DNA of 64,000 nucleotides from Arthrobacter sp. UNC362MFTsu5.1 (GTDB lineage: Bacteria > Actinomycetota > Actinomycetes > Actinomycetales > Micrococcaceae): the NCBI RefSeq assembly GCF_000685965.1, contig NZ_JMLE01000012.1, positions 1 through 64,000 on the forward strand, in the 5' to 3' direction. Each line of letters starts with the position of its first letter. The stretch's first letter is position 1. The notes beneath the pieces are model-generated. The model did not search any database, was not told the origin of the DNA, and saw nothing but the letters and a program-made list of their open reading frames with translations. The position numbers were made by a program, and so were the translations under genes. Of the stretch, positions 11,344-27,283 are shown piece by piece.

Positions 11344-12708
11344 ATGGCTACCCAACCCTCCGCACACCGGCTCTGGATCCGGAATCCGCTCGCGGCCTTT
11401 ACCGCCAACACCCTGGACGCCTCCGGCGGCATCGTGGTGAGCGGCGGAGTCATCACGGAAGTGCTTGCCGCCGGCCAGCTACCGTCCGCGCCCTGCCAGG
11501 AAACGTTCGACGCCGGCAGCCACGTCCTGCTGCCCGGCCTGATCAACACGCACCACCACTTTTACCAAACGCTTACGCGTGCCTGGGGTCCGGTGGCCAA
11601 CGCCCCGCTGTTCCCGTGGTTGCAGAACCTGTACCCGGTCTGGGCGCGGCTGACGCCGCGGGACCTGGAACTGGCCACCACTGTTGCGCTCGCGGAGCTG
11701 CTGCTCTCCGGCTGCACCACCGCAGCGGACCACCACTACCTTTTCCCGGACGGCATGGAGGACGCCATCGACATCGAGGTCCGCGCGGTGCGGGAGCTGG
11801 GCATGCGGGCCACGCTCACCCGCGGCTCCATGACGCTCGGGGAGGACGACGGCGGGCTGCCGCCGCAGTCCACCGTCCAGGCGCCGGAGGTCATCCTGGC
11901 CGACAGCGAGCGGCTGATCCGCGAGTACCACGAGCGCGGCGACGGCGCCGTGATCCAGATTGCCCTGGCCCCGTGTTCACCGTTTTCCGTGACGAAAGAG
12001 ATCATGGCCGAGAGCGCCTTGCTCGCCGAGCGGCACGACGTCCGGCTGCACACGCACCTGGCCGAAACCCTGGACGAGGAGGACTTCTGCCGGGAGATGT
12101 TCGGCCTGCGCACGGTGGAGTACCTGGAGAGCGTGGGCTGGCTGACGGACCGGACCTGGCTGGGCCACGGCATTCATTTCAGCGACGCGGAAATCGCCGC
12201 GCTGGGAGCCGCGGGCACCGCCGTCGCGCATTGCCCCACCTCCAACATGCGGCTGGCCTCAGGCACGGCGCGTGTGCTGGAACTGGAGGACGCTGGAGTC
12301 CCGGTGGGGCTGGGAGTGGACGGATCGGCGTCGAACGATGCCTCCAACATGATCCTGGAGGCGCGGCAGGCGCTGTACCTGCAGCGGCTGCGCTACGGCG
12401 CGCAGGTGCCGGTGGAGCGTGCGCTGGGCTGGGCGACGCGGGGCTCGGCGGCGGTACTGGGCCGCGGTGATCTGGGGCAGCTGGCGCCGGGGATGCAGGC
12501 GGACCTGGCCCTGTTCAGACTCGACGAGCTGCGGTTCTCCGGCAGCCACGATCCGGTGGCCGCGCTCCTGCTGTGCGCGGCAGACCGGGCAGACCGGGTG
12601 ATGGTGGGCGGCCAGTGGCGGGTGGTGGACGGGCAGATTCCGGGACTGGATCTTTCTTCGTTGATTGCGAAGCACTCGGCTGCGGCGCGGAAGCTGGTGA
12701 ACGGGTAG
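11344..12708 (+). CDS. 8-oxoguanine deaminase (amidohydrolase superfamily)
   Basis: A 454-residue metal-dependent amidohydrolase of the TrzN/AtzB-like group to which bacterial 8-oxoguanine deaminases belong; the reaction yields urate and ammonia. Metal ligands are visible: His70 and His72 in NTHHHFYQ, a histidine in LHTHLAE, the catalytic His in WLGHGIHF and the Asp in GVDGSASND. Start ATG 11344 is preceded by AGGAA. Because its product is urate, it joins the xanthine dehydrogenase branch immediately before uricase. Annotations as hydroxydechloroatrazine ethylaminohydrolase or guanine deaminase are the main alternatives; guanine is already covered by the guaD gene opposite. Confidence 0.83.
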   Translation: MATQPSAHRLWIRNPLAAFTANTLDASGGIVVSGGVITEVLAAGQLPSAPCQETFDAGSHVLLPGLINTHHHFYQTLTRAWGPVANAPLFPWLQNLYPVWARLTPRDLELATTVALAELLLSGCTTAADHHYLFPDGMEDAIDIEVRAVRELGMRATLTRGSMTLGEDDGGLPPQSTVQAPEVILADSERLIREYHERGDGAVIQIALAPCSPFSVTKEIMAESALLAERHDVRLHTHLAETLDEEDFCREMFGLRTVEYLESVGWLTDRTWLGHGIHFSDAEIAALGAAGTAVAHCPTSNMRLASGTARVLELEDAGVPVGLGVDGSASNDASNMILEARQALYLQRLRYGAQVPVERALGWATRGSAAVLGRGDLGQLAPGMQADLALFRLDELRFSGSHDPVAALLLCAADRADRVMVGGQWRVVDGQIPGLDLSSLIAKHSAAARKLVNG

Positions 12709-12750: not shown

Positions 12751-13995
12751 ATGAACCCGTCGAAGACTCCGGCCGAGATCCTGGCGATTGACGGCACCGA
12801 GGTTCGCATCTCGAGCCCCGACAAGGTGGTGTTCCCCGAGCCGGGGCTGACGAAGCTCGACCTGGTGCGCTACTACCTCGCGGTCGCGGATGGTGCACTG
12901 CGCGGCGCGGGCGGCCGGCCCATGGTGCTCAAGCGCTTCCCGAAGGGCATCGACGCCGAGCCGTTCTTCCAGAAGCGCGTGCCGGAAAACCATCCCGGTT
13001 TCATCGAGACGGCAACACTGCACTATGCGTCCGGGACATCGGCCGAAGAGGCCGTCATCCGGGATGCCGCAGGCCTTGCCTGGGTGGTGAACCTTGGCTG
13101 CCTCGACCTCAATCCGCATCCCGTGCGCGCCGAGGACCTCGAACATCCCGACGAGCTCCGGGTGGACCTCGATCCGATGCCCGGGGTCGGCTGGTCGCAA
13201 CTGGTCGACGTCGCCTATGTGGCGCGTGAGGTGCTCGACGACGCGGGGCTGGTCGGGTGGCCGAAGACGAGCGGGTCGCGCGGGCTCCACATCCTGGTGC
13301 GCATCGCACCGCAGTGGTCATACCGCGACGTGCGGCTCGCCGCAGAGACGCTCGCCCGCGAGGTGGAGAACCGCGCTCCCGGACTCGCCACCGCGCGGTG
13401 GTGGAAGGAGGAGCGCGGCGAGAGCGTGTTTGTCGATTTCAACCAGAACGCCAAGGACCGCACAGTGGCATCGGCGTACTCGGTCCGGCCGCTGCCCGAT
13501 GCCCGGGTTTCGACGCCGCTCACCTGGGACGAGGTCCGCACCACGCGGCCGGAACAGTTCACGGTGCTCACCGTGCCGGAGCGGTTCGCAGCGGTGGGCG
13601 ACCCGCACGCCGGGATCGACGACGCGGCGGGTTCACTCGACGGGCTTCTGGCGCTGGCAGCACAGCTCGGCCCGGCCGAGAAAGCGCCGCGCAGCGGAGA
13701 CGCCGCAGGCCGCCGGCAGTCGGTGATGCCGCTGATCGAGGTGGCCCGGACCAGGACCAAGTCCGAGGCGCTTGCCGCGCTGGACGAGTGGAAGGCCCGG
13801 CATGCGGACGTTGTCCCGGACCTGCATCCGGCCGACGTACTGGTCGATGGAATGCGCGGCTCAAGCTCGCTCTGGTACCGGGTGCGGGTGAATCTTCAGC
13901 ACGTTCCGGAGGCGGAGCGTCCGCCGCAGGAGGAACTCATCGCCGACTACGACCCCTGGGCGGGCAAGGTGTGGCCGGGGCGTACCGAGTCCTGA
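12751..13995 (+). CDS. ligD: Stand-alone LigD-type polymerase/primase domain protein
   Basis: A 414-residue protein matching the polymerase (PolDom) part of LigD, which fills gaps during non-homologous end joining. The metal-binding pair is in RVDLDPMPG (Asp139, Asp141), and the nucleotide-binding segment TSGSRGLHI is at 173-181; WWKEERGESVFVDFNQNAKDRT is also typical. No ligase or nuclease domain is attached and no Ku gene is in the window. The C-terminal 100 residues beyond the core include EALAALDEWKARH and are of unclear role. It interrupts an otherwise purine-related gene run, which suggests insertion. Symbol given by domain homology only. Confidence 0.88.
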   Translation: MNPSKTPAEILAIDGTEVRISSPDKVVFPEPGLTKLDLVRYYLAVADGALRGAGGRPMVLKRFPKGIDAEPFFQKRVPENHPGFIETATLHYASGTSAEEAVIRDAAGLAWVVNLGCLDLNPHPVRAEDLEHPDELRVDLDPMPGVGWSQLVDVAYVAREVLDDAGLVGWPKTSGSRGLHILVRIAPQWSYRDVRLAAETLAREVENRAPGLATARWWKEERGESVFVDFNQNAKDRTVASAYSVRPLPDARVSTPLTWDEVRTTRPEQFTVLTVPERFAAVGDPHAGIDDAAGSLDGLLALAAQLGPAEKAPRSGDAAGRRQSVMPLIEVARTRTKSEALAALDEWKARHADVVPDLHPADVLVDGMRGSSSLWYRVRVNLQHVPEAERPPQEELIADYDPWAGKVWPGRTES

Positions 13996-14561: not shown

Positions 14562-15470
14562 ATGAGCAGCAAAATCATCCTCGGCCAGAACCAGTACGGC
14601 AAGGCCGAAGTCCGGGTTGTAAAAATCACTCGCGACACCGACCGCCACGAGATCGAAGACCTGAACGTCACCTCGCAGCTGCGCGGGGACTTCGCCGCCG
14701 CCCACCTCGAAGGCGACAACAGCCACGTCGTTGCCACGGACACGCAGAAGAACACCATCTACGCGTTTGCCCGTGAAGGCGTCGGCTCACCGGAGGCCTT
14801 CCTCCTGCGGCTGGGCGAGCACTTCACGTCCAGCTTCGACTGGGTCACCGGCGGCCGCTGGGAAGCCGAGTCCTACAGCTGGGAGCGGATCCAGGCCCAC
14901 GGTGCCGAGCACGACCACTCCTTCGTGCGGAAGGGCCAGGAAGTCCGCACGGCCGTCCTGGTCCGCGACGGCGCGGCAGCACACCTCATCTCGGGCCTGA
15001 AGGACCTCACCGTCCTCAAATCCACCCAGTCCGGCTTCGTCGGCTACCCGCGGGACAAGTACACCACCCTGCCGGAAACCACGGACCGCATCCTGGCCAC
15101 GGATGTTTCCGCCCGCTGGCGCTTCAACGCCAACACCGACTACAGCTCGCTCGACTTCAACAAGAGCTACGAAGACGTCAAGAGCCTGCTGCTGGAAGGC
15201 TTCACCGAGAAGTACTCCCACGCCCTTCAGCAGACCCTGTTCGATATGGGCGCCAAGGTCCTGGAAGCACACAGCGAGATCGACGAAATCAAGTTCTCGA
15301 TGCCCAACAAGCACCACTTCCTGGTGGACCTCTCGCCGTTCGGCCTCGACAACCCCAACGAGGTCTTCTTTGCCGCCGACCGCCCGTACGGCCTGATCGA
15401 GGCCACCGTCCAGCGCGAGGACGCCGCCCCGGCGGACATCGCCTGGTCCGGTATCGCCGGCTTCTGCTAA
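14562..15470 (+). CDS. Urate oxidase (uricase)
   Basis: A 302-residue cofactor-free urate oxidase, the usual length for Arthrobacter uricases. It oxidises urate to 5-hydroxyisourate with release of hydrogen peroxide. The catalytic Lys14 in QYGKAEVRV and Thr59-Asp60 in VVATDTQKNTIY match the Lys/Thr/Asp set of characterised uricases, and VLKSTQSGF carries the substrate-binding Gln. Tandem T-fold domains extend to the end; no peroxisomal-type tail is expected. ATG 14562 has GGGAAC upstream. HIU hydrolase and OHCU decarboxylase, often adjacent to uricase, are not next to it or elsewhere in the window. Confidence 0.97.
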   Translation: MSSKIILGQNQYGKAEVRVVKITRDTDRHEIEDLNVTSQLRGDFAAAHLEGDNSHVVATDTQKNTIYAFAREGVGSPEAFLLRLGEHFTSSFDWVTGGRWEAESYSWERIQAHGAEHDHSFVRKGQEVRTAVLVRDGAAAHLISGLKDLTVLKSTQSGFVGYPRDKYTTLPETTDRILATDVSARWRFNANTDYSSLDFNKSYEDVKSLLLEGFTEKYSHALQQTLFDMGAKVLEAHSEIDEIKFSMPNKHHFLVDLSPFGLDNPNEVFFAADRPYGLIEATVQREDAAPADIAWSGIAGFC

Positions 15471-15633: not shown

Positions 15634-17139
15634 ATGAACACCAAGAAGAAATCCGGCGCTGCAACGGCCGCCACCGGCCGCAAGCAGTCCGACCGCCCCG
15701 AAGACCAGCGGCTGCCCCTCGGAAGCACGTTCGCCTACGGCTTCCAGCACGTGCTCACCATGTACGGCGGCATCATCGCCCCGCCGCTGATCATCGGCGC
15801 AGCCGCCGGCATGTCGTCCCAGGACATCGGCCTGCTGATCGCCGCCTGCCTTTTCGTCGGCGGCCTGGCCACCATTCTCCAGACGGTCGGCATCAGGTTC
15901 TTCGGATCCCAGCTGCCCCTGGTCCAGGGCGTGTCCTTCGCCGGTGTTTCCACGATGGTGGCGATCGTCCACGGCGGCGGCGGGATCCAGGCGGTGTTTG
16001 GCTCGGTGATTGCGGCTTCGCTGATCGGCCTGCTCATCACCCCCCTGTTTTCGAAGATCATCCGCTTCTTCCCGCCGGTGGTCACGGGCACCGTCATCAC
16101 CACCATCGGCCTGACGCTGATGCCGGTCGCGGCCAACTGGGCCATGGGCGGCAACAACAAGGCGCCGAACTACGGCAGCATGGCCAACATCGGCCTTGCC
16201 GCAGCCACCATGGCGATTGTGCTGCTGCTGAGCAAAGTGGGCAACGCCGCCATCTCCCGGCTTTCCATCCTGCTGGCCATGGTGCTCGGCACGGGGATTG
16301 CGTTCGTCTTTGGCATGGCCGATTTCTCCAAGGTGGGCCAGGGCGAAATCGTCGCGTTCCCCACCCCGTTCGCGTTCGGCCCGCCCACGTTCGAAATCGC
16401 CGCGATCATCTCCATGCTGATCGTCATCCTGGTGACGCTCACCGAGACCTCTGCGGACATCATCGCCGTGGGCGAGATCGTGGGCACCAAGGTTGACTCC
16501 AAGCGCATCGGCGACGGCCTGCGGGCGGACATGCTCTCCAGCGCCATCTCCCCGCTGTTCAACTCCTTCACCCAGAGCGCCTTCGCCCAGAACGTGGGCC
16601 TCGTTGCCATCACGGGCGTCAAGAGCCGCTTCGTGGTCAGCGCCGGCGGCCTGATCCTGGTGATCCTGGGCCTCCTGCCGGTTCTTGGCCGGGTGGTCGC
16701 AGCGGTGCCGACGCCCGTCCTGGGCGGCGCCGGCGTCGTACTCTTTGGAACTGTTGCCGCCAGCGGCATCCGGACCCTTGCCAAAGTGGAGTACCGGAAC
16801 AACATGAACCTGATCATCGTGGCGGCGTCCGTGGGCTTCGGCATGATCCCGATCGCTGCGCCGGCGTTCTACGACAAGTTCCCGTCCTGGTTCGGCACCA
16901 TCTTCCACTCGGGCATCAGCTCGGCCGCGGTCATGGCCATCCTGCTGAACCTGCTCTTCAACCACCTCAAGGCCGGCAATTCCGAGAACCAGTCCGTCTT
17001 CGTGGCCGGCACCGGCCGCGTGGTCCGCGAAGAGGACCTCAAGTGCCTGGCCGACGGCGACCGTTACGAGGGCGGCAAGCTGATCGACTGCGACGGCAAG
17101 GAAGTCCCGGTGGAGTCGGCGTCGAAATCTGACCACTAA
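15634..17139 (+). CDS. NCS2 family urate/xanthine permease
   Basis: A 501-residue membrane protein with about 12-14 hydrophobic segments, of the uracil-xanthine permease family (PucJ/UacT-like). Signatures are QLPLVQGVSFAGVS near residue 90, the substrate/proton segment TLTETSADIIAVGEI near residue 270, and FAQNVGLVAITGVKSRFV near residue 325. It would import xanthine or urate for the neighbouring uricase. Start ATG 15634 lacks a clear ribosome-binding site; a 7-codon open frame starting at ATG 15614 ends in TGA overlapping this ATG, which could provide translational coupling. The C-terminal 60 residues are hydrophilic and cytoplasmic. Confidence 0.9.
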   Translation: MNTKKKSGAATAATGRKQSDRPEDQRLPLGSTFAYGFQHVLTMYGGIIAPPLIIGAAAGMSSQDIGLLIAACLFVGGLATILQTVGIRFFGSQLPLVQGVSFAGVSTMVAIVHGGGGIQAVFGSVIAASLIGLLITPLFSKIIRFFPPVVTGTVITTIGLTLMPVAANWAMGGNNKAPNYGSMANIGLAAATMAIVLLLSKVGNAAISRLSILLAMVLGTGIAFVFGMADFSKVGQGEIVAFPTPFAFGPPTFEIAAIISMLIVILVTLTETSADIIAVGEIVGTKVDSKRIGDGLRADMLSSAISPLFNSFTQSAFAQNVGLVAITGVKSRFVVSAGGLILVILGLLPVLGRVVAAVPTPVLGGAGVVLFGTVAASGIRTLAKVEYRNNMNLIIVAASVGFGMIPIAAPAFYDKFPSWFGTIFHSGISSAAVMAILLNLLFNHLKAGNSENQSVFVAGTGRVVREEDLKCLADGDRYEGGKLIDCDGKEVPVESASKSDH

Positions 17140-18193: not shown

Positions 18194-19756
18194 ATGACAG
18201 ACTCCGCGATGGCCGCACCCCGGGTTGAAGCGCCCGCCCGCACCGGCCAGCTCCCCGACTACGATCCCCGGCTCAGCAACGAGGACCTGGTCCCGCTGAA
18301 GAACCAGCGCTGGACCAGCTACAACCTGTTCGCGTTCTGGATGTCAGACGTCCACAGCATCGGCGGCTACGTCACGGCAGGCAGCCTCTTCGCCCTGGGC
18401 CTGGCCAGCTGGCAGGTCCTCGTGGCACTGCTGGCGGGCATTGTGATCGTCAACATCTTCTGCAACCTCGTGGCCAAGCCCAGCCAGCTGACCGGCGTCC
18501 CGTACCCGGTCATCAACCGGGCCGTCTTCGGCGTCAAGGGCGCCAACATCCCGGCCATCATCCGGGGACTGATCGCGGTTGCCTGGTACGGCGTCCAGAC
18601 GTTCCTTGCCTCCGAGGCCCTGGTGATTGTCTTCCTCAAGTTCTTCCCCGGCATGGCACCGCTGTACGACGTCGAACAGAACGGCTTCCTGGGACTCTCC
18701 GCCCTGGGCTGGATCTGCTACGGCATCCTCTGGGTGGCCCAGGCTGCGCTGTTCTGGAACGGCATGGAAAGCATCCGCAAATTCATCGACTTCGCCGGTC
18801 CCGCCGTCTACGTGGTGATGCTGGTCCTGGCCATCTACCTGGTGTCCAAGGCCGGCATCGGCAACATCAGCCTGAATCTTTCCAGCGGTCCGCCCCTGGA
18901 CTTTGCCGCCTCCATCCCCGTGATGATCTCCGCGATCGCCCTGGTGGTCTCCTACTTCTCCGGCCCGATGCTCAACTTCGGCGACTTCGCCCGCTACGGC
19001 AAGAGCTACAAGGCGGTCAAAAAGGGCAACCTCCTGGGGCTGCCGGTGAACTTCCTGTTCTTCTCGCTCCTGACCGTCATCACGGCGTCGGCCACCATCC
19101 CGGTGTTCGGGCGCCTCATCACGGACCCGGTCAAGACGGTCCAGGAAATCGACACCGTCTTCGCGGTGCTGCTGGGCGGACTGACCTTCGTCATCGCCAC
19201 CGTGGGCATCAACATCGTGGCCAACTTCATCTCGCCCGCGTTCGACTTCTCCAACGTCAGCCCGCAGAAAATCAGCTGGCGCGCAGGCGGCATGATTGCC
19301 GCCGTCGGCTCCGTCATCCTGACCCCGTGGAACTGGTACTCCAACAACGACGCCATCCACTACACCCTCGGCGTCCTGGGCGCCCTGATCGGCCCGCTCT
19401 TCGGCATCCTGATCGCCGGGTACTACGTGGTGAGCCGGCAGAAGGTCTGGGTGGACGACATGTACACGCTGAAGACCACCGGCCGGTACTGGTTCCGGAA
19501 CGGCTACAACCCGAACGCGGTCAAGGCGGTGGCCATCAGCGGCGCCATCTCCATCGCGTCCGTGGTGATCCCCAAGATCCTGCTCGACACCGGTGCCACC
19601 GCAGTGAACGCGACCTGGATCGGCAACTACAGCTGGTTCCTCGGCTGCGCGCTCGGCTTCCTCGTCTTCAGGGCGCTGGAGCGCAAGTCCCCGATGATCT
19701 CGCTCGAGCCCGCCGGCGTGGACAGCGGCGCGGTCAGCGACGGCACGCTGGCTTAG
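18194..19756 (+). CDS. NCS1 family permease, probably allantoin/purine/hydantoin
   Basis: A 520-residue membrane protein with about 12 hydrophobic segments, of the nucleobase-cation-symport-1 family that includes Mhp1 and allantoin permease PucI. The family opening is visible as LSNEDLVPLKNQRWTSYNLFAFWMSDVHS (residues about 28-56; quoted here in parts as LVPLKNQRWTSYNLFAFWM and DVHSIGGY), followed by QLTGVPYPVINRAVFG and RGLIAVAWYGVQT. Context (uricase, ureidoglycine aminohydrolase) favours allantoin as substrate, but the sequence cannot separate allantoin, uracil, cytosine and hydantoin. ATG 18194 has AGAGGAAACC upstream. A palindromic repeat follows the stop. Confidence 0.88.
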   Translation: MTDSAMAAPRVEAPARTGQLPDYDPRLSNEDLVPLKNQRWTSYNLFAFWMSDVHSIGGYVTAGSLFALGLASWQVLVALLAGIVIVNIFCNLVAKPSQLTGVPYPVINRAVFGVKGANIPAIIRGLIAVAWYGVQTFLASEALVIVFLKFFPGMAPLYDVEQNGFLGLSALGWICYGILWVAQAALFWNGMESIRKFIDFAGPAVYVVMLVLAIYLVSKAGIGNISLNLSSGPPLDFAASIPVMISAIALVVSYFSGPMLNFGDFARYGKSYKAVKKGNLLGLPVNFLFFSLLTVITASATIPVFGRLITDPVKTVQEIDTVFAVLLGGLTFVIATVGINIVANFISPAFDFSNVSPQKISWRAGGMIAAVGSVILTPWNWYSNNDAIHYTLGVLGALIGPLFGILIAGYYVVSRQKVWVDDMYTLKTTGRYWFRNGYNPNAVKAVAISGAISIASVVIPKILLDTGATAVNATWIGNYSWFLGCALGFLVFRALERKSPMISLEPAGVDSGAVSDGTLA

Positions 19757-19918: not shown

Positions 19919-20674
19919 TCAGTTTTGGTTGAGCTCGTCCGAGATCGCCTGGGCTGCTTCGCGCAGCAGCGGCACGGCGCGTTCGGCGAAGGACTGGTCC
20001 ACGCGGGACACCGGCCCGGACACGGAAATGGCCGTGGGCGTCGGCGCGTTGGGGACTGCCATCGCAAAGCAGCGGACGCCGATCTCCTGCTCCTCCTCAT
20101 CGATGGAGTAGCCGCGTTCACGGATGAGCTTCAGGTCCAGGAGCAGGGAGTCGATGTCGCCGATGCTCTTGGGGGTGGGCGTCGGCATGCCGCTGCGCTG
20201 GACGATCCCGCGGACGGTCTCGTCATCCAGCTGGGCCAGGATCGCCTTGCCCACGCCGGTGGCGTGGGTGTGGGCGCGGCGGCCCACCTCGGTGAACATG
20301 CGCATGGAGTGCAGGGACGGCACCTGGGCCACGTATATGACCATGTCCGAGTCCAGCACCGCCATGTTGGACGTCTCCCCCAGCCGGTCCACGAGGGACT
20401 TGAGCTGCGGACGGGCGAGTGCGCCGAGCTGCTTGTTGGCGCCTTCGCCGAGCCGGATGAGCCGCGGGCCGAGGGCGTAGCGGCGGTTGGGCAGCTGGCG
20501 GATGTAGCCCAGGGTGACCAGCGTGCGCAGCAGGCGGTGGATGGTGGGAAGCGGCAGGTCAGTGGAGGACGAGAGCTCGCTGAGCGTGACGTCTCCGCCG
20601 GCATCAGTGATCAGTTCCAAAAGTTCGAAGACGCGCTCAACGGACTGCACGCCTCCCGGGGCTTTTTCAGCCAT
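19919..20674 (-). CDS. IclR-family transcriptional regulator
   Basis: A 251-residue regulator with an N-terminal winged helix (SVERVFELLELI, then TLSELSSSTDLPLPTIHRLLRTL at about 28-50) and the C-terminal IclR effector domain (HTHATGVGKAILA near residue 145, EEQEIGVRCFAMAVPN near 205). ATG 20674 has AGGAG eight bases upstream; an in-frame TTG at 20707 is less likely. It is divergent from the malic enzyme-malate synthase-AllE operon, the arrangement expected for an AllR/IclR-like regulator responding to glyoxylate or a ureide. The candidate operator at 20795 is between the two. Function as allantoin regulator is inference. Confidence 0.9.
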   Translation of the reverse strand: MAEKAPGGVQSVERVFELLELITDAGGDVTLSELSSSTDLPLPTIHRLLRTLVTLGYIRQLPNRRYALGPRLIRLGEGANKQLGALARPQLKSLVDRLGETSNMAVLDSDMVIYVAQVPSLHSMRMFTEVGRRAHTHATGVGKAILAQLDDETVRGIVQRSGMPTPTPKSIGDIDSLLLDLKLIRERGYSIDEEEQEIGVRCFAMAVPNAPTPTAISVSGPVSRVDQSFAERAVPLLREAAQAISDELNQN

Positions 20675-20794
20675 AACCGTGGTCTCCTGCGGTATCGGTT
20701 CCGACAACTCTTATCCACATCGTGAAAAAAATTGCTTAGAAGACCCAAGATACAGCACGCGCAAGGCTCCGTCGATGCACCTTCAGGGCTTGTG

Positions 20795-20895: not shown

Positions 20896-22338
<1,443 letters not shown>

Positions 22339-22364: not shown

Positions 22365-23963
22365 ATGGCTCTCTCAGTCACAGACCCGCAGCCGATTGCA
22401 CGAGCAGAGGAAATCCTCACCCCGAAGGCCCTGGCCTTCGTCGAGGAGCTCCACAAGCGGTTTGCGGGCACCCGCGCCGAACTCCTCAAAGCCCGCGTGG
22501 CCAAGCGCGAGCAGGTGGCCCGGACCGGAAAGCTTGATTTCCTGCCCGAAACCAAGGATGTCCGCGCGGGCGACTGGAAGGTGGCGCCGGCACCGGCCGC
22601 GCTGCAGGACCGCCGCGTGGAAATGACCGGCCCTGCCTCGCCGGCCAAGATGGCCATCAACGCCCTCAACTCCGGTGCCAAGGTGTGGCTGGCCGACCTC
22701 GAGGACGCCAGCACCCCCACCTGGGCCAACGTCATCGACGCGATCCTGAACCTCCGCGATGCCGCCGCGGGGACCCTGAGCTACACCTCCCCCGAGGGCA
22801 AGGAATACCGGCTCCGCACCGACGCGCCGCTCGCCGTCGTGGTGGCCCGTCCCCGCGGCTGGCACATGGATGAGCGCCACCTCCTGCTCGACGGCGAACA
22901 CACCGTGGGTGCGCTGGTGGACTTCGGCCTGCACTTCTTCCACACCGCCAAGCAGCTCCTCCTCAACGGCCAGGGCCCGTACTACTACCTGCCGAAGATG
23001 GAGAGCCACCTCGAGGCCAGGCTCTGGAACGAGGTGTTCGTCTTCGCGCAGGACTTCCTGGGCATCCCGCAGGGCACCATCAAGGCCACCGTGCTGATTG
23101 AGACCATCCCGGCAGCTTTCGAGATGGACGAGATCCTGTACGAGCTCCGCGACCACGCCGCAGGGCTTAACGCCGGCCGCTGGGACTACCTGTTCAGCAT
23201 CATCAAGTACTTCCGCGACGCCGGCGCCAGCTTTGTGCTGCCGGACCGCGCCACCGTGGCCATGACGGCACCGTTCATGCGCGCCTACACGGAGCTGCTG
23301 GTCAAGACGTGCCACCACCGCGGCGCCTTTGCCATGGGCGGCATGGCGGCCGTCATCCCCAACCGCAAGCAGCCCGAGGTCACCGCCCAGGCGTTCGAGA
23401 AGGTCCGTGCGGACAAGACGCGCGAGGCCAACGACGGCTTCGACGGCTCCTGGGTGGCCCACCCGGACCTGGTGCCGGTCTGCCAGGAAGTGTTCGATTC
23501 CGTCCTGGGCGAGCGGCCCAACCAGCTGGACAAGCAGCGCCCGGAGGTCAGCGTCACGGCGGACCAGCTCCTGGACATCGCCTCGGCCGACGGCAAGGTC
23601 ACCGAGGCCGGGCTTCGCCTGAACCTCTACGTCGCGGTCGCATACACGGCCGTGTGGATCTCCGGCAACGGCGCGGTGGCCATCCACAACCTGATGGAGG
23701 ACGCCGCCACGGCCGAAATCTCCCGTTCGCAGGTCTGGCAGCAGATCCGCAACAGCGTGGTCCTGGCCGATACCGGAAACGCGGTCACACGTGAACTGGT
23801 CAGCACCATCCTGGCCGAGGAGACCGAAAAGCTCCGCGGCGAAGTGGGCGAGGAGTCATTCGTCAAGTACTACAAGCCGGCCAGCGACCTGATCGGGGAC
23901 ATCTGCCTGTCCGAGGATTACACCGACTTCCTCACCACTCCGGCCTACGAACTGGTGGGCTGA
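22365..23963 (+). CDS. aceB: Malate synthase A
   Basis: A 532-residue malate synthase (isoform A length) that condenses glyoxylate with acetyl-CoA. Visible family segments include VWLADLEDASTPTWANV (metal-binding region, about 106-122), RPRGWHMDERH, IETIPAAFEMDEILYELR (about 246-263), and GAFAMGGMAAVIPNR. It starts 26 bases after the malic enzyme stop with AAAGGA upstream of ATG 22365. No isocitrate lyase is in the window, so here the glyoxylate probably comes from ureide breakdown rather than from the glyoxylate shunt. Confidence 0.96.
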   Translation: MALSVTDPQPIARAEEILTPKALAFVEELHKRFAGTRAELLKARVAKREQVARTGKLDFLPETKDVRAGDWKVAPAPAALQDRRVEMTGPASPAKMAINALNSGAKVWLADLEDASTPTWANVIDAILNLRDAAAGTLSYTSPEGKEYRLRTDAPLAVVVARPRGWHMDERHLLLDGEHTVGALVDFGLHFFHTAKQLLLNGQGPYYYLPKMESHLEARLWNEVFVFAQDFLGIPQGTIKATVLIETIPAAFEMDEILYELRDHAAGLNAGRWDYLFSIIKYFRDAGASFVLPDRATVAMTAPFMRAYTELLVKTCHHRGAFAMGGMAAVIPNRKQPEVTAQAFEKVRADKTREANDGFDGSWVAHPDLVPVCQEVFDSVLGERPNQLDKQRPEVSVTADQLLDIASADGKVTEAGLRLNLYVAVAYTAVWISGNGAVAIHNLMEDAATAEISRSQVWQQIRNSVVLADTGNAVTRELVSTILAEETEKLRGEVGEESFVKYYKPASDLIGDICLSEDYTDFLTTPAYELVG

Positions 23964-23966
23964 GGC

Positions 23967-25241
23967 ATGGCGGTACCCTCCGGCTCCCTCAGCGCGCACG
24001 ATCTCGCGCAGATCGACGCACAGCTGGCCGACACCGACCGGCTGCTGGAGCGCAACTACCCGGGCGACGACGGCACCCGCCAGCCGGTACATACCGTGTA
24101 TGTACCGGCGGACCGTTTCACGCCGTCGTTCTCCGCTGAGTGGGGGGCTACGGCACTGGCCGCGGCGGAAGCCCACGGCGGCCTGGCCCGTCTGGGCCAC
24201 CTGCTCGGCCAGGACGCCGAACTTGCCGAAGCCGTGGCCGCGCGAGTCCAGGCGAAACTGGAAAGCGAACCGGTTGAGGACCTGCGCCTGGACTTCGAAG
24301 ACGGTTTCGGGGAGAGGGGCGACGACGCCGAGGACGCGGCCGCTGTTGCGGCGGCTTCCGCCGTGGCCGCGGCAGTCGCGGCCGGCTCAGCGCCCCCGTT
24401 CATCGGCATCCGGTTCAAGTGCTTCGAGGCGGCCACCCGTGCCCGCGGCCTGCGCACCCTGGACCTGTTCGTCTCCGGACTGGCCGCAGCGGGCGAGCTG
24501 CCGCAGGGCCTGATCCTCACCCTTCCCAAAGTCACCACCGTGGCGCAGGTGAAGGCCATGGACTTCGCCGTGTCCCGGCTGGAGGAAGCGCACTCGCTGC
24601 CCGCCGGCCGGCTGCGGTTCGAGGTGCAGGTGGAAACGCCGCAGCTCATCCTCGGCCCGGAAGGAACATCGCCGGTGGCGCAGCTGCCGCACGCGGTCCC
24701 GGGACGGATCAGCGGCCTGCACTACGGCACGTACGACTACTCCGCCTCGTTGCAGATCTCCGCGGAATACCAGTCCATGGAACATCCGGTGGCGGACTTC
24801 GCCAAGGAAGTCATGCAGCTGGCGGTGGCCGGGACGGGCATCCGCTTGTCGGACGGCTCCACCAACATCATCCCCGTGGGCGACAACGTCGAAAACGCGT
24901 GGCAGCTGCACGGCCGGCTGGTGCGGCGCTCCCTGGAGCGCGGCTACTACCAGGGCTGGGACCTGCACCCGGCCCAGCTGCCCAGCCGCTTCGCGGCCAC
25001 CTATGCTTTCTACCGCCAGGGCCTGCCCGCCGCGGCGGCACGGCTGCGCAACTACGTGGACCGGACCGAGGGCGGGGTCATGGACGAACCCGCCACCGCC
25101 CGCGCGCTGGCCGCGTTCGTGCTGCGCGGCGTCCAGTGCGGAGCCGTCGGCGCCGAAGACGTCCAGGCGCTTGCCGGCGTCGGAATCCCCCAGTTGACCG
25201 GCCTTGCGCACCCGCGGCTGGCCCACTCCACTTCGAAGTAA
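23967..25241 (+). CDS. DUF6986 family aldolase/citrate lyase-like protein
   Basis: A 424-residue protein of the HpcH/HpaI-like TIM-barrel group, the type recently named DUF6986 and earlier mislabelled phosphoenolpyruvate kinase. Visible features are EDLRLDFEDGFGERGDDAE (about 95-113; acidic metal-site region), IRFKCFE, LILTLPKV, FEVQVETPQLILGPEG (about 212-227) and HYGTYDYSASLQISAEYQ. The reaction is unknown. It starts three bases after the malate synthase stop and ends seven bases before ureidoglycine aminohydrolase, so it is co-translated with glyoxylate and ureide enzymes. A C-C lyase or lyase of a glyoxylate-yielding substrate is plausible but unproven. Confidence 0.85.
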   Translation: MAVPSGSLSAHDLAQIDAQLADTDRLLERNYPGDDGTRQPVHTVYVPADRFTPSFSAEWGATALAAAEAHGGLARLGHLLGQDAELAEAVAARVQAKLESEPVEDLRLDFEDGFGERGDDAEDAAAVAAASAVAAAVAAGSAPPFIGIRFKCFEAATRARGLRTLDLFVSGLAAAGELPQGLILTLPKVTTVAQVKAMDFAVSRLEEAHSLPAGRLRFEVQVETPQLILGPEGTSPVAQLPHAVPGRISGLHYGTYDYSASLQISAEYQSMEHPVADFAKEVMQLAVAGTGIRLSDGSTNIIPVGDNVENAWQLHGRLVRRSLERGYYQGWDLHPAQLPSRFAATYAFYRQGLPAAAARLRNYVDRTEGGVMDEPATARALAAFVLRGVQCGAVGAEDVQALAGVGIPQLTGLAHPRLAHSTSK

Positions 25242-25248
25242 GGATCCA

Positions 25249-26064
25249 ATGATGGGAAAGTATTACTACCCCCAGGGCGGCCTGCCGCCGCAGACCCACC
25301 TCACCACGGAACGGGCCATCGTCACGGAGGCCTACACGGTCATCCCCAAGGGCGTCATGACCGACATCGTGACCAGCACCCTGCCGGGGTTCTCCAACAC
25401 GCGCTCCTGGATCCTGGCCCGCCCGATTGCCGGGTTTGCCACCACGTTCTCGCAGCTCATCGTGGAGATCGGCCCCGGCGGCGGCGCTCCCAAGGCCGAG
25501 TTTGAGCCCGGCGTCGAAGGCGTCGTTTTCGTCACCAAGGGCAAGGTCAACCTGACCCTCGACGGCGAACTCCACCAGCTTGAGGAAGGCGGCTACGCCT
25601 ACCTGGCCGCCGGATCCGCCTGGGGCCTGGAGAACGTCTCGGATGACATTGTCTCCTTCCAGTGGATCCGCAAGGCCTACGAGCGCCTTGAGGGCTACGA
25701 GGCAAAGTCCTTCGTCACCAGTGACGCCGAAGTGGAACCCACCGCCATGCCGGATACCAACGGCGCCTGGAAGACCACCCGCTTCACGGATTCCAGCGAC
25801 CTGGCCCACGACATGCAGGTGAACATCGTGACGTTCCAGCCGGGCGGGGTCATCCCGTTCCCGGAGACCCACGTCATGGAGCACGGCCTGTATGTCCTCG
25901 AAGGCAAGGCCATGTATCTGCTCAACAACGACTGGGTTGAGGTGGAGGCCGGCGACTTCATGTGGCTGCGCGCCTTCTGCCCGCAGGCCTGCTACGCCGG
26001 CGGCCCGGGCGAGTTCCGCTACCTGCTGTACAAGGACATGAACCGCCAGATCCGCCTGACCTGA
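25249..26064 (+). CDS. allE: (S)-ureidoglycine aminohydrolase
   Basis: A 271-residue bicupin. It releases ammonia from ureidoglycine, the product of allantoate amidohydrolase, giving ureidoglycolate. The start YYYPQGGLPPQTHLTTERAI and the length fit the AllE family; the C-terminal cupin holds the manganese-binding set in FPETHVMEHGLYVLEG (Glu and two His). ATG 25249 has AAGGA upstream; the next codon but one is another ATG. Last gene of the malic enzyme operon. Allantoinase, allantoate amidohydrolase and the ureidoglycolate-cleaving enzyme that would flank this step are not in the window. Confidence 0.92.
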   Translation: MMGKYYYPQGGLPPQTHLTTERAIVTEAYTVIPKGVMTDIVTSTLPGFSNTRSWILARPIAGFATTFSQLIVEIGPGGGAPKAEFEPGVEGVVFVTKGKVNLTLDGELHQLEEGGYAYLAAGSAWGLENVSDDIVSFQWIRKAYERLEGYEAKSFVTSDAEVEPTAMPDTNGAWKTTRFTDSSDLAHDMQVNIVTFQPGGVIPFPETHVMEHGLYVLEGKAMYLLNNDWVEVEAGDFMWLRAFCPQACYAGGPGEFRYLLYKDMNRQIRLT

Positions 26065-26119
26065 CCGGCTTCGCGGCCGCGGCCGACGGCTATTGACGCG
26101 TCTGAAAGCCCTGAGGAAC

Positions 26120-27283
26120 ATGAGTTCCGTGGCACGGATTCGCGCACTGCCGTTCCGGACCGCGGCCGCGGCGACCGTCGCCGTGCTGGTCGCCGCACTG
26201 GGCGGCTGCACTGCGGCTCCGGAACCGCCGGAGCAGCCCTCGTCGCTGGCACGGCTGGCGGCAGCGCTGGAAGAGTTTGGCAACGAAATGCTCGACGACG
26301 GCGCCCCCGCCGTCCTGATGCAGGCCAAAGTGCGGGGTGAAGAATGGTCACGCGCTTCCGGGGTGAGAAGCCTCGAAGGCAGGGAACCGCTGGAGGTTGA
26401 CGATCCCGTGCCCGTCGGACGGGTCACCGAGTCCTTCATTGCAGTGTCCGTGCTCAAACTCGCGGTTGAAGGCAGGCTGGGCCTTGAGGACCCTGTCAGC
26501 CGGCATTTGCCGGACTTCGAGAGCATCATGCACCCGCCGGGGCCGGTCACGGTTCGGCGGCTCCTGCAGCACGAGTCCGGGATGCCGGACTACCTCGTCC
26601 CGCTGCTTCAGCAGGGTAGCCTGGGCGAGGTGCTGGCCGCCGGCCGCAGCCACCGGGAGCTCCTCACCCTGGCCGCGACCCGCAAGTGGGAGCCGCGGCT
26701 GGCGCAGGGTTACGAGTACTCGGGTTCGGACTACGTCGTGCTGGGCATGATCGTGGAACGGCTTCGAGGGTTGCCGATTAGCGACGTCCTGCGATCCGAC
26801 GTGACGGAACCGCTCGGCCTCACCGCCACGCGGATGACCGAACGCGGCCCCGCACCTCCCGCACTGGTCCACGGCTACGTCACCAGTTCCGGCGAGCGCC
26901 TCGATGTCAGCTACCCCGCAGTCCGCGCAGGCGACCCTGCCGTGGGCCTGGTGTCCACAGTCGCCGACCTGAACACCTTCTACGCCGCGCTGCTCGAGGG
27001 CCGCCTGATCCCGCGGTCCATGGTCACGGACATGCAGACCCCGCCTTACGCCCGGTACGGGATGGGGATCCAGCGCTGGAACGACACCTGCACCAACAAC
27101 TTTTACTACGGCCGCGCCGGTGATTCAGCCGGCTACGGCACTATTTCGATGTCCAGCGCCGACGGAACCCGGCAGGCATCGGTCTCCCTGGCTGCCCCGC
27201 CGCAGCCCTTCAGCCTAAAAGGCAACGGATTGGCGGAGGACCTCGTCGACGTCCTGGAGGAAGCCCTCAACTCAAGCTGTTAG
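26120..27283 (+). CDS. Beta-lactamase-fold (class C/serine hydrolase-like) lipoprotein lacking catalytic motifs
   Basis: A 387-residue secreted lipoprotein: hydrophobic signal and lipobox ALGGC with Cys30. The rest matches the beta-lactamase/DD-peptidase-like fold (PF00144 type), including VLKLAVEGRLGLEDPVSRHLP and LLQHESGMPDY. The catalytic motifs are degenerate: the SxxK position reads R101-V-T-E104, the YxN motif reads YSG, and the HxG motif reads GRAGDSAGYG. Hydrolase activity therefore seems unlikely; a binding role at the cell surface is possible. Start ATG 26120 follows GAGGA closely; TTG 26093 is an alternative. It is 55 bases past allE and may be unrelated to it. Confidence 0.85.
   Translation: MSSVARIRALPFRTAAAATVAVLVAALGGCTAAPEPPEQPSSLARLAAALEEFGNEMLDDGAPAVLMQAKVRGEEWSRASGVRSLEGREPLEVDDPVPVGRVTESFIAVSVLKLAVEGRLGLEDPVSRHLPDFESIMHPPGPVTVRRLLQHESGMPDYLVPLLQQGSLGEVLAAGRSHRELLTLAATRKWEPRLAQGYEYSGSDYVVLGMIVERLRGLPISDVLRSDVTEPLGLTATRMTERGPAPPALVHGYVTSSGERLDVSYPAVRAGDPAVGLVSTVADLNTFYAALLEGRLIPRSMVTDMQTPPYARYGMGIQRWNDTCTNNFYYGRAGDSAGYGTISMSSADGTRQASVSLAAPPQPFSLKGNGLAEDLVDVLEEALNSSC

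Follow-up and report, generated by a model that had tools for sequence, protein, structure and literature searches.

Which enzyme turns ureidoglycolate into glyoxylate in Actinomycetota whose genomes lack the usual candidates? The question is raised by the window, the whole 64-kb stretch of DNA analyzed here, in which a gene labeled DUF6986 stands between one whose product consumes glyoxylate and one whose product makes ureidoglycolate. According to one published report, an Arthrobacter grows on allantoin although the genes that would take allantoate on to glyoxylate and urea "were not obvious" (PMC3534580). The earlier note on this DNA suggested that the DUF6986 protein could be an unrecognized lyase for ureidoglycolate, and the computational analysis described here supports that suggestion. 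We put the probability at roughly 0.83 that, in Actinomycetota, DUF6986 is the (S)-ureidoglycolate lyase that releases urea (EC 4.3.2.3 activity), with no homology to AllA/DAL3. This reading draws on comparative evidence: the phylogenetic profile, gene order, a gene fusion, a shared operator, elimination of the other pathway steps in a compact cluster, and the residues conserved in the superfamily. A full-text search of the open-access literature returned no paper on DUF6986, and none of the titles and abstract openings among the matches listed claims it as a ureidoglycolate lyase.

The DUF6986 gene and its neighborhood

The open reading frame at 23967-25241 (forward strand) encodes 424 amino acids, for which we propose the function of a Mg2+-dependent (S)-ureidoglycolate urea-lyase. 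PF22484, the Pfam family of DUF6986, covers the protein over its full length (612.7 bits against a cut-off of 27, profile positions 1-407 of 408) and is the sole Pfam family listed for it; no NCBIfam model matched at E 0.001. Upstream on the same strand is malate synthase A (22365-23963; TIGR01344, 749.7 bits, over its cut-off), which consumes glyoxylate and ends 3 bases before the DUF6986 gene. Downstream is the (S)-ureidoglycine aminohydrolase (UGlyAH, AllE type; 25249-26064, forward strand; TIGR03214 and NF008376 over their cut-offs), which makes (S)-ureidoglycolate and whose ATG, on inspection of the sequence, lies at 25249, 7 bases past the DUF6986 stop. Coordinates and sequence bear out the close spacing reported earlier. 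The earlier note had concluded from it that the protein must work at the same metabolic junction; spacing alone cannot argue this, but the profile, gene order, fusion, and operator evidence given below does associate DUF6986 with the pathway.

The first gene of the putative operon codes for a malic enzyme (20896-22338, forward strand) and is separated from malate synthase by 26 bases. Divergent from it is an IclR-family regulator (19919-20707, reverse strand), whose NCBIfam matches, BhcR, IclR, and AllR among them, all fall below cut-off. An NCS1 nucleobase/allantoin-type permease (18194-19756, forward strand) is above cut-off for Pfam and below it for the NCBIfam allantoin models. Also on the forward strand are genes for a xanthine permease of the NCS2 type (15634-17139; TIGR03173 over cut-off), a uricase (14562-15470; TIGR03383 over cut-off), and an 8-oxoguanine deaminase-type amidohydrolase (11344-12708; NF006055 over cut-off). 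A LigD-type primase-polymerase gene (12751-13995) is found within this purine-degradation region. Directly after UGlyAH, on the same strand, is a gene for a serine beta-lactamase-fold protein (26093-27283), in whose product an N-terminal lipoprotein-like signal was recognized by eye.

The known enzymes for the step

The earlier note saw no other candidate for the step that makes glyoxylate from ureidoglycolate, and with respect to three known families the same is true of the genome as a whole. A genome-wide profile search found no AllA (PF04115) in the window's genome, and AllD-type proteins (TIGR03175) were not matched genome-wide. Among M20 amidohydrolases of the AAH/UAH type, one protein is above the TIGR01879 cut-off, and NF006770 identifies it as an allantoate amidohydrolase (611 bits against 372); a further, partial match to TIGR01879 stays below the cut-off at 42 bits. 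A canonical ureidoglycolate lyase or amidohydrolase elsewhere in the genome, together with no activity of the protein on ureides, is what the earlier note expected to count against its proposal. Such enzymes, and the dehydrogenase as well, were sought through these three families, and none was found.

As for the other steps, the urease alpha subunit is encoded on contig C8 of the same genome. Allantoinase was not found in the 64-kb window or in C12 from 64 to 124 kb. The UGlyAH at 25249-26064 also scores above the cut-off of NF040771, "bifunctional allantoicase/(S)-ureidoglycine aminohydrolase," and despite that match a separate allantoate amidohydrolase is encoded on C12 at 112 kb.

Distribution across genomes

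The main sample comprised 168 Actinomycetes genomes from 73 genera, with a threshold of E <= 1e-30 for DUF6986, and 14 genomes, E. coli among them, served as controls. DUF6986 is present in 63 of the 168 genomes and in 27 of the 73 genera. The two makers of ureidoglycolate, UGlyAH (14/168) and allantoicase (52/168), occur together in no genome of the 168. One or the other is found in 66 genomes, 62 of which carry DUF6986, and 62 of the 63 DUF6986 genomes carry one of the two. The phi coefficient with UGlyAH/allantoicase is 0.94 for DUF6986, while malate synthase A reaches 0.58 and urease 0.54; the Fisher P values for co-occurrence count genomes as independent despite their relatedness. The known enzymes for ureidoglycolate are rare in the same sample. 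AllA was detected in 3 of the 168 genomes, and two of these matches, both in DUF6986 genomes, are weak while above the Pfam cut-off (G248, E 2e-7; G274, E 4e-6). The ureidoglycolate dehydrogenase AllD is above its cut-off in 0 of the 168, and 32 match below it. In the E. coli control, AllA and UGlyAH are present, and DUF6986 occurs in none of the 14 control genomes, E. coli included.

The same trend is observed at closer range. Among 150 genomes of the window's genus, DUF6986 is present in 142, UGlyAH in 143, and both in 142, with the only mismatch in a genome of 240 contigs that is 94% complete (G359). When the listed members of g5, g137, g165, g167, g168, g172, and g182 were compared by eye, those without DUF6986 were also without both makers.

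The exceptions are few. The sole DUF6986 genome with neither maker, G295, is an 850-contig assembly in which the gene lies near a contig edge. Allantoicase occurs without DUF6986 in three genomes of one genus (G038, G071, and G302) and in G190, suggesting that another enzyme or the known spontaneous decay of ureidoglycolate (PMC3793230) can suffice. Five loci of the exception genus were searched by eye or tblastn for a replacement gene beside allantoicase, and no obvious lyase was seen; the open reading frames there are polysaccharide-deacetylase-like, racemase-like, permease, urease, allantoinase-like, and others. This genus may use an alternative ureidoglycolate route. At L209 and L210-L213 (G071, G038, and G302), allantoicase is accompanied by a racemase-like gene, with no match to DUF6986 or AllA.

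Malate synthase as a neighbor

Of 80 loci from Arthrobacter, Pseudarthrobacter, and close records, 78 show malate synthase, DUF6986, and UGlyAH in this same order, so the arrangement is not due to chance. In one of the two exceptions (L055) the stretch runs off the contig; the other (L080) keeps UGlyAH and DUF6986, with malate synthase absent from its 21 kb. Farther afield the picture is different. In 50 DUF6986-centered loci of the class, malate synthase adjoins DUF6986 only in the window's genus (G008) and in G182, and the DUF6986 loci of L080, G310, G328, and Tsukamurella are without it. The malate synthase neighbor is therefore a minor clue to the function of DUF6986, and it was set aside as such, the profile with UGlyAH and allantoicase being much tighter.

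The malate synthase neighbor is also part of the case for reading DUF6986 as a glyoxylate-using or 2-hydroxyacid C-C lyase or synthase, similar to an aldolase or malate synthase, that disposes of the glyoxylate from the ureide pathway. Such a role would suit the C-C chemistry of the superfamily, as well as the position of the gene beside malate synthase and malic enzyme in the window and beside malate synthase in G182. However, glyoxylate users are already there, with malate synthase A in 57 of the 63 DUF6986 genomes and two copies in the window's genome, the further one on contig C11. DUF6986 also tracks the formation of ureidoglycolate much better than malate synthase A does, it persists in loci that have no malate synthase, and the ureidoglycolate step would be left without an enzyme. 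We consider a C-C enzyme improbable and prefer the ureidoglycolate lyase.

Gene order and fusion

In 36 of the 63 genomes, drawn from 13 of the 15 families that hold DUF6986, no more than 10 kb separates it from UGlyAH or allantoicase, measured between profile matches. In the remaining genomes, the partner is within 25 kb (2), far (9), on another contig (15), or absent (1). Family f65 has no shown linkage to the partner for 9 of its 10 copies (2 far, 7 on another contig), and two of those nine (G266 and G247) adjoin allantoinase. In many families, allantoinase, uricase, xanthine dehydrogenase, and deaminases are among the neighbors. Of 7 full-length copies from other classes of the phylum, 4 have uricase or allantoicase in their 1.5-kb flanks (L095-L098).

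Some loci are especially informative. On a Tsukamurella plasmid, the run is xdh-guaD-DUF6986-UGlyAH, with DUF6986 overlapping the start of UGlyAH and malate synthase not annotated. In L174 (G216), a run on one strand contains xanthine dehydrogenase-type genes, DUF6986, allantoinase, allantoicase, OHCU decarboxylase, HIU hydrolase, uricase, and a deaminase, with the HIU hydrolase and OHCU decarboxylase identified by Pfam. This cluster provides an enzyme for every step that leads from xanthine to ureidoglycolate, with DUF6986 as the one gene left over. In G183, DUF6986 is fused in frame to OHCU decarboxylase in a single open reading frame of 576 amino acids (L179, 9338-11068).

The fusion could also be taken to mean that DUF6986 acts earlier, between urate and allantoin, or as an accessory factor. 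This would account for the uricase that adjoins DUF6986 in several loci, and for the window itself, where neither an HIU hydrolase motif nor one for OHCU decarboxylase was found beside the uricase. Yet both of these enzymes coexist with DUF6986, not only in L174 but in the clusters of L171, L177, L188, and L205, recognized there by HIU-hydrolase-like and OHCU-decarboxylase-like motifs and, for the HIU hydrolase of L171, confirmed by Pfam. Moreover, the Tsukamurella and Gordonia loci pair DUF6986 with UGlyAH or urease, and uricase is not annotated there. An early role is accordingly very hard to credit next to a role in cleaving ureidoglycolate.

Gordonia p174 and G284 each have a divergent DUF6986 copy directly upstream of ureABC, as expected if the product is urea. 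These loci bear on whether DUF6986 might be a ureidoglycolate amidohydrolase, which would hydrolyze its substrate to glyoxylate, 2 NH3, and CO2. Such an enzyme would have the same co-occurrence profile in its favor, along with the 16 of 63 DUF6986 genomes in which urease alpha is missing. Plant UAH, the known enzyme of this kind, belongs to the M20-type amidohydrolases, whereas the DUF6986 protein matches PF22484 only and has no amidohydrolase domain. The site it shares with CitE and malate synthase, described below, is that of a lyase or synthase, and the urease neighbors point to urea. Hydrolysis is quite unlikely on these grounds, and urea release by a lyase is preferred.

Relationships among the copies

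In a tree of 52 rows, the 12 UGlyAH-linked copies form one clade among the allantoicase-linked ones, with a support of 87/93, which is below the 95/80 mark; in the labels, G295 is marked Alc by default, though no allantoicase was found there. The placement of this clade suggests that one family serves both routes. A second copy in the window's genome (G000 C36:6952-8229; L183, L002) is an open reading frame of 425 amino acids with 50% identity to the window protein. It groups with a Paenarthrobacter plasmid copy (100/97), and both adjoin NCS1 permeases. The extra copies may differ in function. On the Paenarthrobacter ureafaciens plasmid pCZY (L114, 8641-12776), which is conjugative, the DUF6986 paralogue is located between a polysaccharide-deacetylase-fold protein and the NCS1 permease. 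In G454 (C1:3122027-3123219), DUF6986 is split over two overlapping frames beside a UGlyAH match, a frameshift or sequencing error.

A shared operator in a Streptomyces-like genus

The Streptomyces-like genus g5 (family f4) provides 13 genomes with DUF6986 and allantoicase, the two being unlinked: 7 copies are more than 1.6 Mb from allantoicase, and 6 are on another contig. A palindrome, TTCAAC-N5-GTTGAA, was derived here as a consensus from the upstream regions of allantoinase, where it is perfect in 12 of 13 genomes. Ahead of malate synthase, 6 of 7 regions match it at 10 of 12 positions. Ahead of the unlinked DUF6986, it reaches at least 11/12 in 4 of 13 genomes and at least 10/12 in 6 of 13, compared to a chance per region of 0.00023 for 11/12 and 0.0046 for 10/12 in random sequences generated from these regions with a first-order model. 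The other 7 of the 13 copies have best scores of 7 to 9 of 12, near chance (one from a shortened region). In 272 kb from 22 g5 loci, there are 24 sites of at least 10/12, located upstream of allantoinase (13), malate synthase (8), and DUF6986 (3). The operator is absent from the gap between the IclR and malic enzyme genes of the window, and scanning the other loci gave no site of at least 10/12 ahead of DUF6986; the motif is therefore not a general one. AllR is reported to control the allantoin genes of S. coelicolor (Navone 2015).

Superfamily and active site

The broad alignment holds 52 DUF6986 rows and leaves out L179, L182, L187, and L206, which have odd open reading frame ends or a stop, as well as several near-duplicates. 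A single-sequence search of the PDB with DUF6986 gave nothing meaningful. The profile of the 52 proteins matched the malyl-CoA lyases 4l9y (E 2e-5, in an alignment of about 90 residues) and 5ugr (E 3e-5), and also 3r4i, a CitE-like protein (E 3e-4 across 244 positions of the profile). Compared to the window's own malate synthase, it gave E 2e-4 and a probability of 46%, with VETP, GTYDY, and GWDLHP aligned.

The residues that these alignments bring together are those of the metal site and the catalytic Arg. D109, F110, E111, and D112 (DFED; codons 24291-24302, forward strand, as for all codons given here) align to DCEDG of 3r4i, and D109, E111, and D112, invariant in the 52 sequences, are the counterparts of Asp42, Glu44, and Asp45 of malyl-CoA lyase; Glu44 and Asp45 hold Mg-bound waters (PMC3832036). 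The equally invariant R149 (24411-24413) aligns to the Arg of VGVRI in 3r4i and is the counterpart of the catalytic Arg76. E223 of VETP (24633-24635) aligns to the Glu of EVIIES in 4l9y, and D257 of GTYDY (24735-24737) to the Asp of GAADFAAS; both are invariant in the 52 and would correspond to the metal ligands Glu141 and Asp168 of the R. sphaeroides enzyme, the numbering being deduced from an offset of 21 relative to the chain index. D373 of MDEPA (25083-25085), also invariant in the 52, is by motif and position the likely counterpart of the lid residue Asp299, which protonates the leaving group. The corresponding residues are described as conserved across the superfamily, with named exceptions (PMC3832036). 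The lyase-type protein with an acidic metal-site motif that the earlier note perceived is supported by these conserved residues. Judged by these alignments, DUF6986 is a remote relative of CitE, malyl-CoA lyase, and malate synthase with a predicted metal site that has been kept, and the conserved residues fit any lyase of the superfamily that would form or use glyoxylate.

The fold can be addressed less closely. The AlphaFold input was a shallow alignment (at least 79% identical; 54 of the 72 usable relatives were included), and the model is poor (pLDDT 61, pTM 0.54), so residue geometry was not used. In Foldseek, malate synthases fill the matches listed for this low-confidence model (best E 9.6e-4, TM about 0.3, rmsd 18-20). 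Malate synthases are also on top in VIA-align, where the same low-confidence model against 3cv2_B has Z 12.2 and rmsd 5.9 with 241 residues aligned. A TIM-barrel fold is weakly backed by the model.

Since the top PDB profile matches are malyl-CoA lyases, and the plasmid copies carry the annotation "aldolase/citrate lyase family protein," one could consider DUF6986 a CoA-dependent malyl-CoA or citramalyl-CoA lyase of the CitE family that is tied to the cluster by history only. The metal-ligand Glu and Asp, the DxED motif, and the Arg of these enzymes (4l9y, 5ugr, and 3r4i) are indeed conserved in DUF6986. The link to malyl-CoA lyases, however, is remote and extends over some 90 residues, and DUF6986 has 424 amino acids compared to a chain of 339. 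PF03328 does not appear among the families of the window protein; of three other DUF6986 proteins scanned, one is above the PF03328 cut-off, one matches below it, and one has no match. The tight co-occurrence with ureide genes over 27 genera and the OHCU decarboxylase fusion also count against this explanation, which is exceedingly unlikely compared to a lyase for ureidoglycolate.

Proposed reaction

From the residues and the pathway, we infer a substrate, products, and a series of catalytic steps. In malyl-CoA lyase, the substrate hydroxyl coordinates Mg2+, the base is probably the Arg, and oxalate or glyoxylate is a ligand of the metal through two oxygens (PMC3832036). With ureidoglycolate, whose head is a 2-hydroxy-carboxylate, such a site could release urea where an enolate would otherwise leave. 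In the proposed reaction, E223 and D257 would hold Mg2+, and E111 and D112 would hold waters. The metal would chelate ureidoglycolate through its carboxylate and 2-hydroxyl, in the way that the hydroxy-acid portion of malyl-CoA is bound, and R149 would take the proton of the hydroxyl. The C-N bond would then break in place of the C-C bond, with the leaving urea protonated by an acid, either D373 or a conserved His. Glyoxylate would remain as a bidentate ligand of Mg and be passed to malate synthase or another glyoxylate user, while the released urea would go to urease.

A wider view follows the same lines, and we think it quite likely. DUF6986 would be a C-N (urea) lyase that has arisen inside a superfamily of C-C lyases and synthases, so that cleavage and the consumption of glyoxylate would be carried out by two remote homologues binding the same Mg-glyoxylate. 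Whether ureidoglycolate is made by allantoicase or by way of AAH and UGlyAH, DUF6986 would be the general lyase for it in Actinomycetota, and it would be an analogue of AllA, a nickel enzyme.

Comparison with known enzymes and significance

The proposed reaction, ureidoglycolate to glyoxylate and urea, is that of AllA/DAL3 (PF04115, EC 4.3.2.3), and both enzymes would be metal dependent. DUF6986 does not match PF04115, however, and AllA is a nickel enzyme (PMC3793230), whereas DUF6986 is proposed to depend on Mg2+. EC 4.3.2.3 has a history of misannotation (PMC3793230). Malate synthases A, G, and H resemble DUF6986 in being the top fold matches of its low-confidence model, but DUF6986 has no malate synthase domain of Pfam or NCBIfam, TIGR01344 included. 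The Burkholderia UGL, filed under EC 4.3.2.3 for the same reaction, belongs to the FAH family.

If the assignment is true, it would fill a gap in the recycling of purine nitrogen in a major soil phylum. A function would replace the label "aldolase/citrate lyase family protein" and the DUF number in many genomes, DUF6986 being present in 63 of the 168 Actinomycetes genomes sampled. EC 4.3.2.3 would have a second solution, probably Mg dependent and unrelated to AllA, and a superfamily known for C-C chemistry would be extended to the cleavage of C-N bonds.
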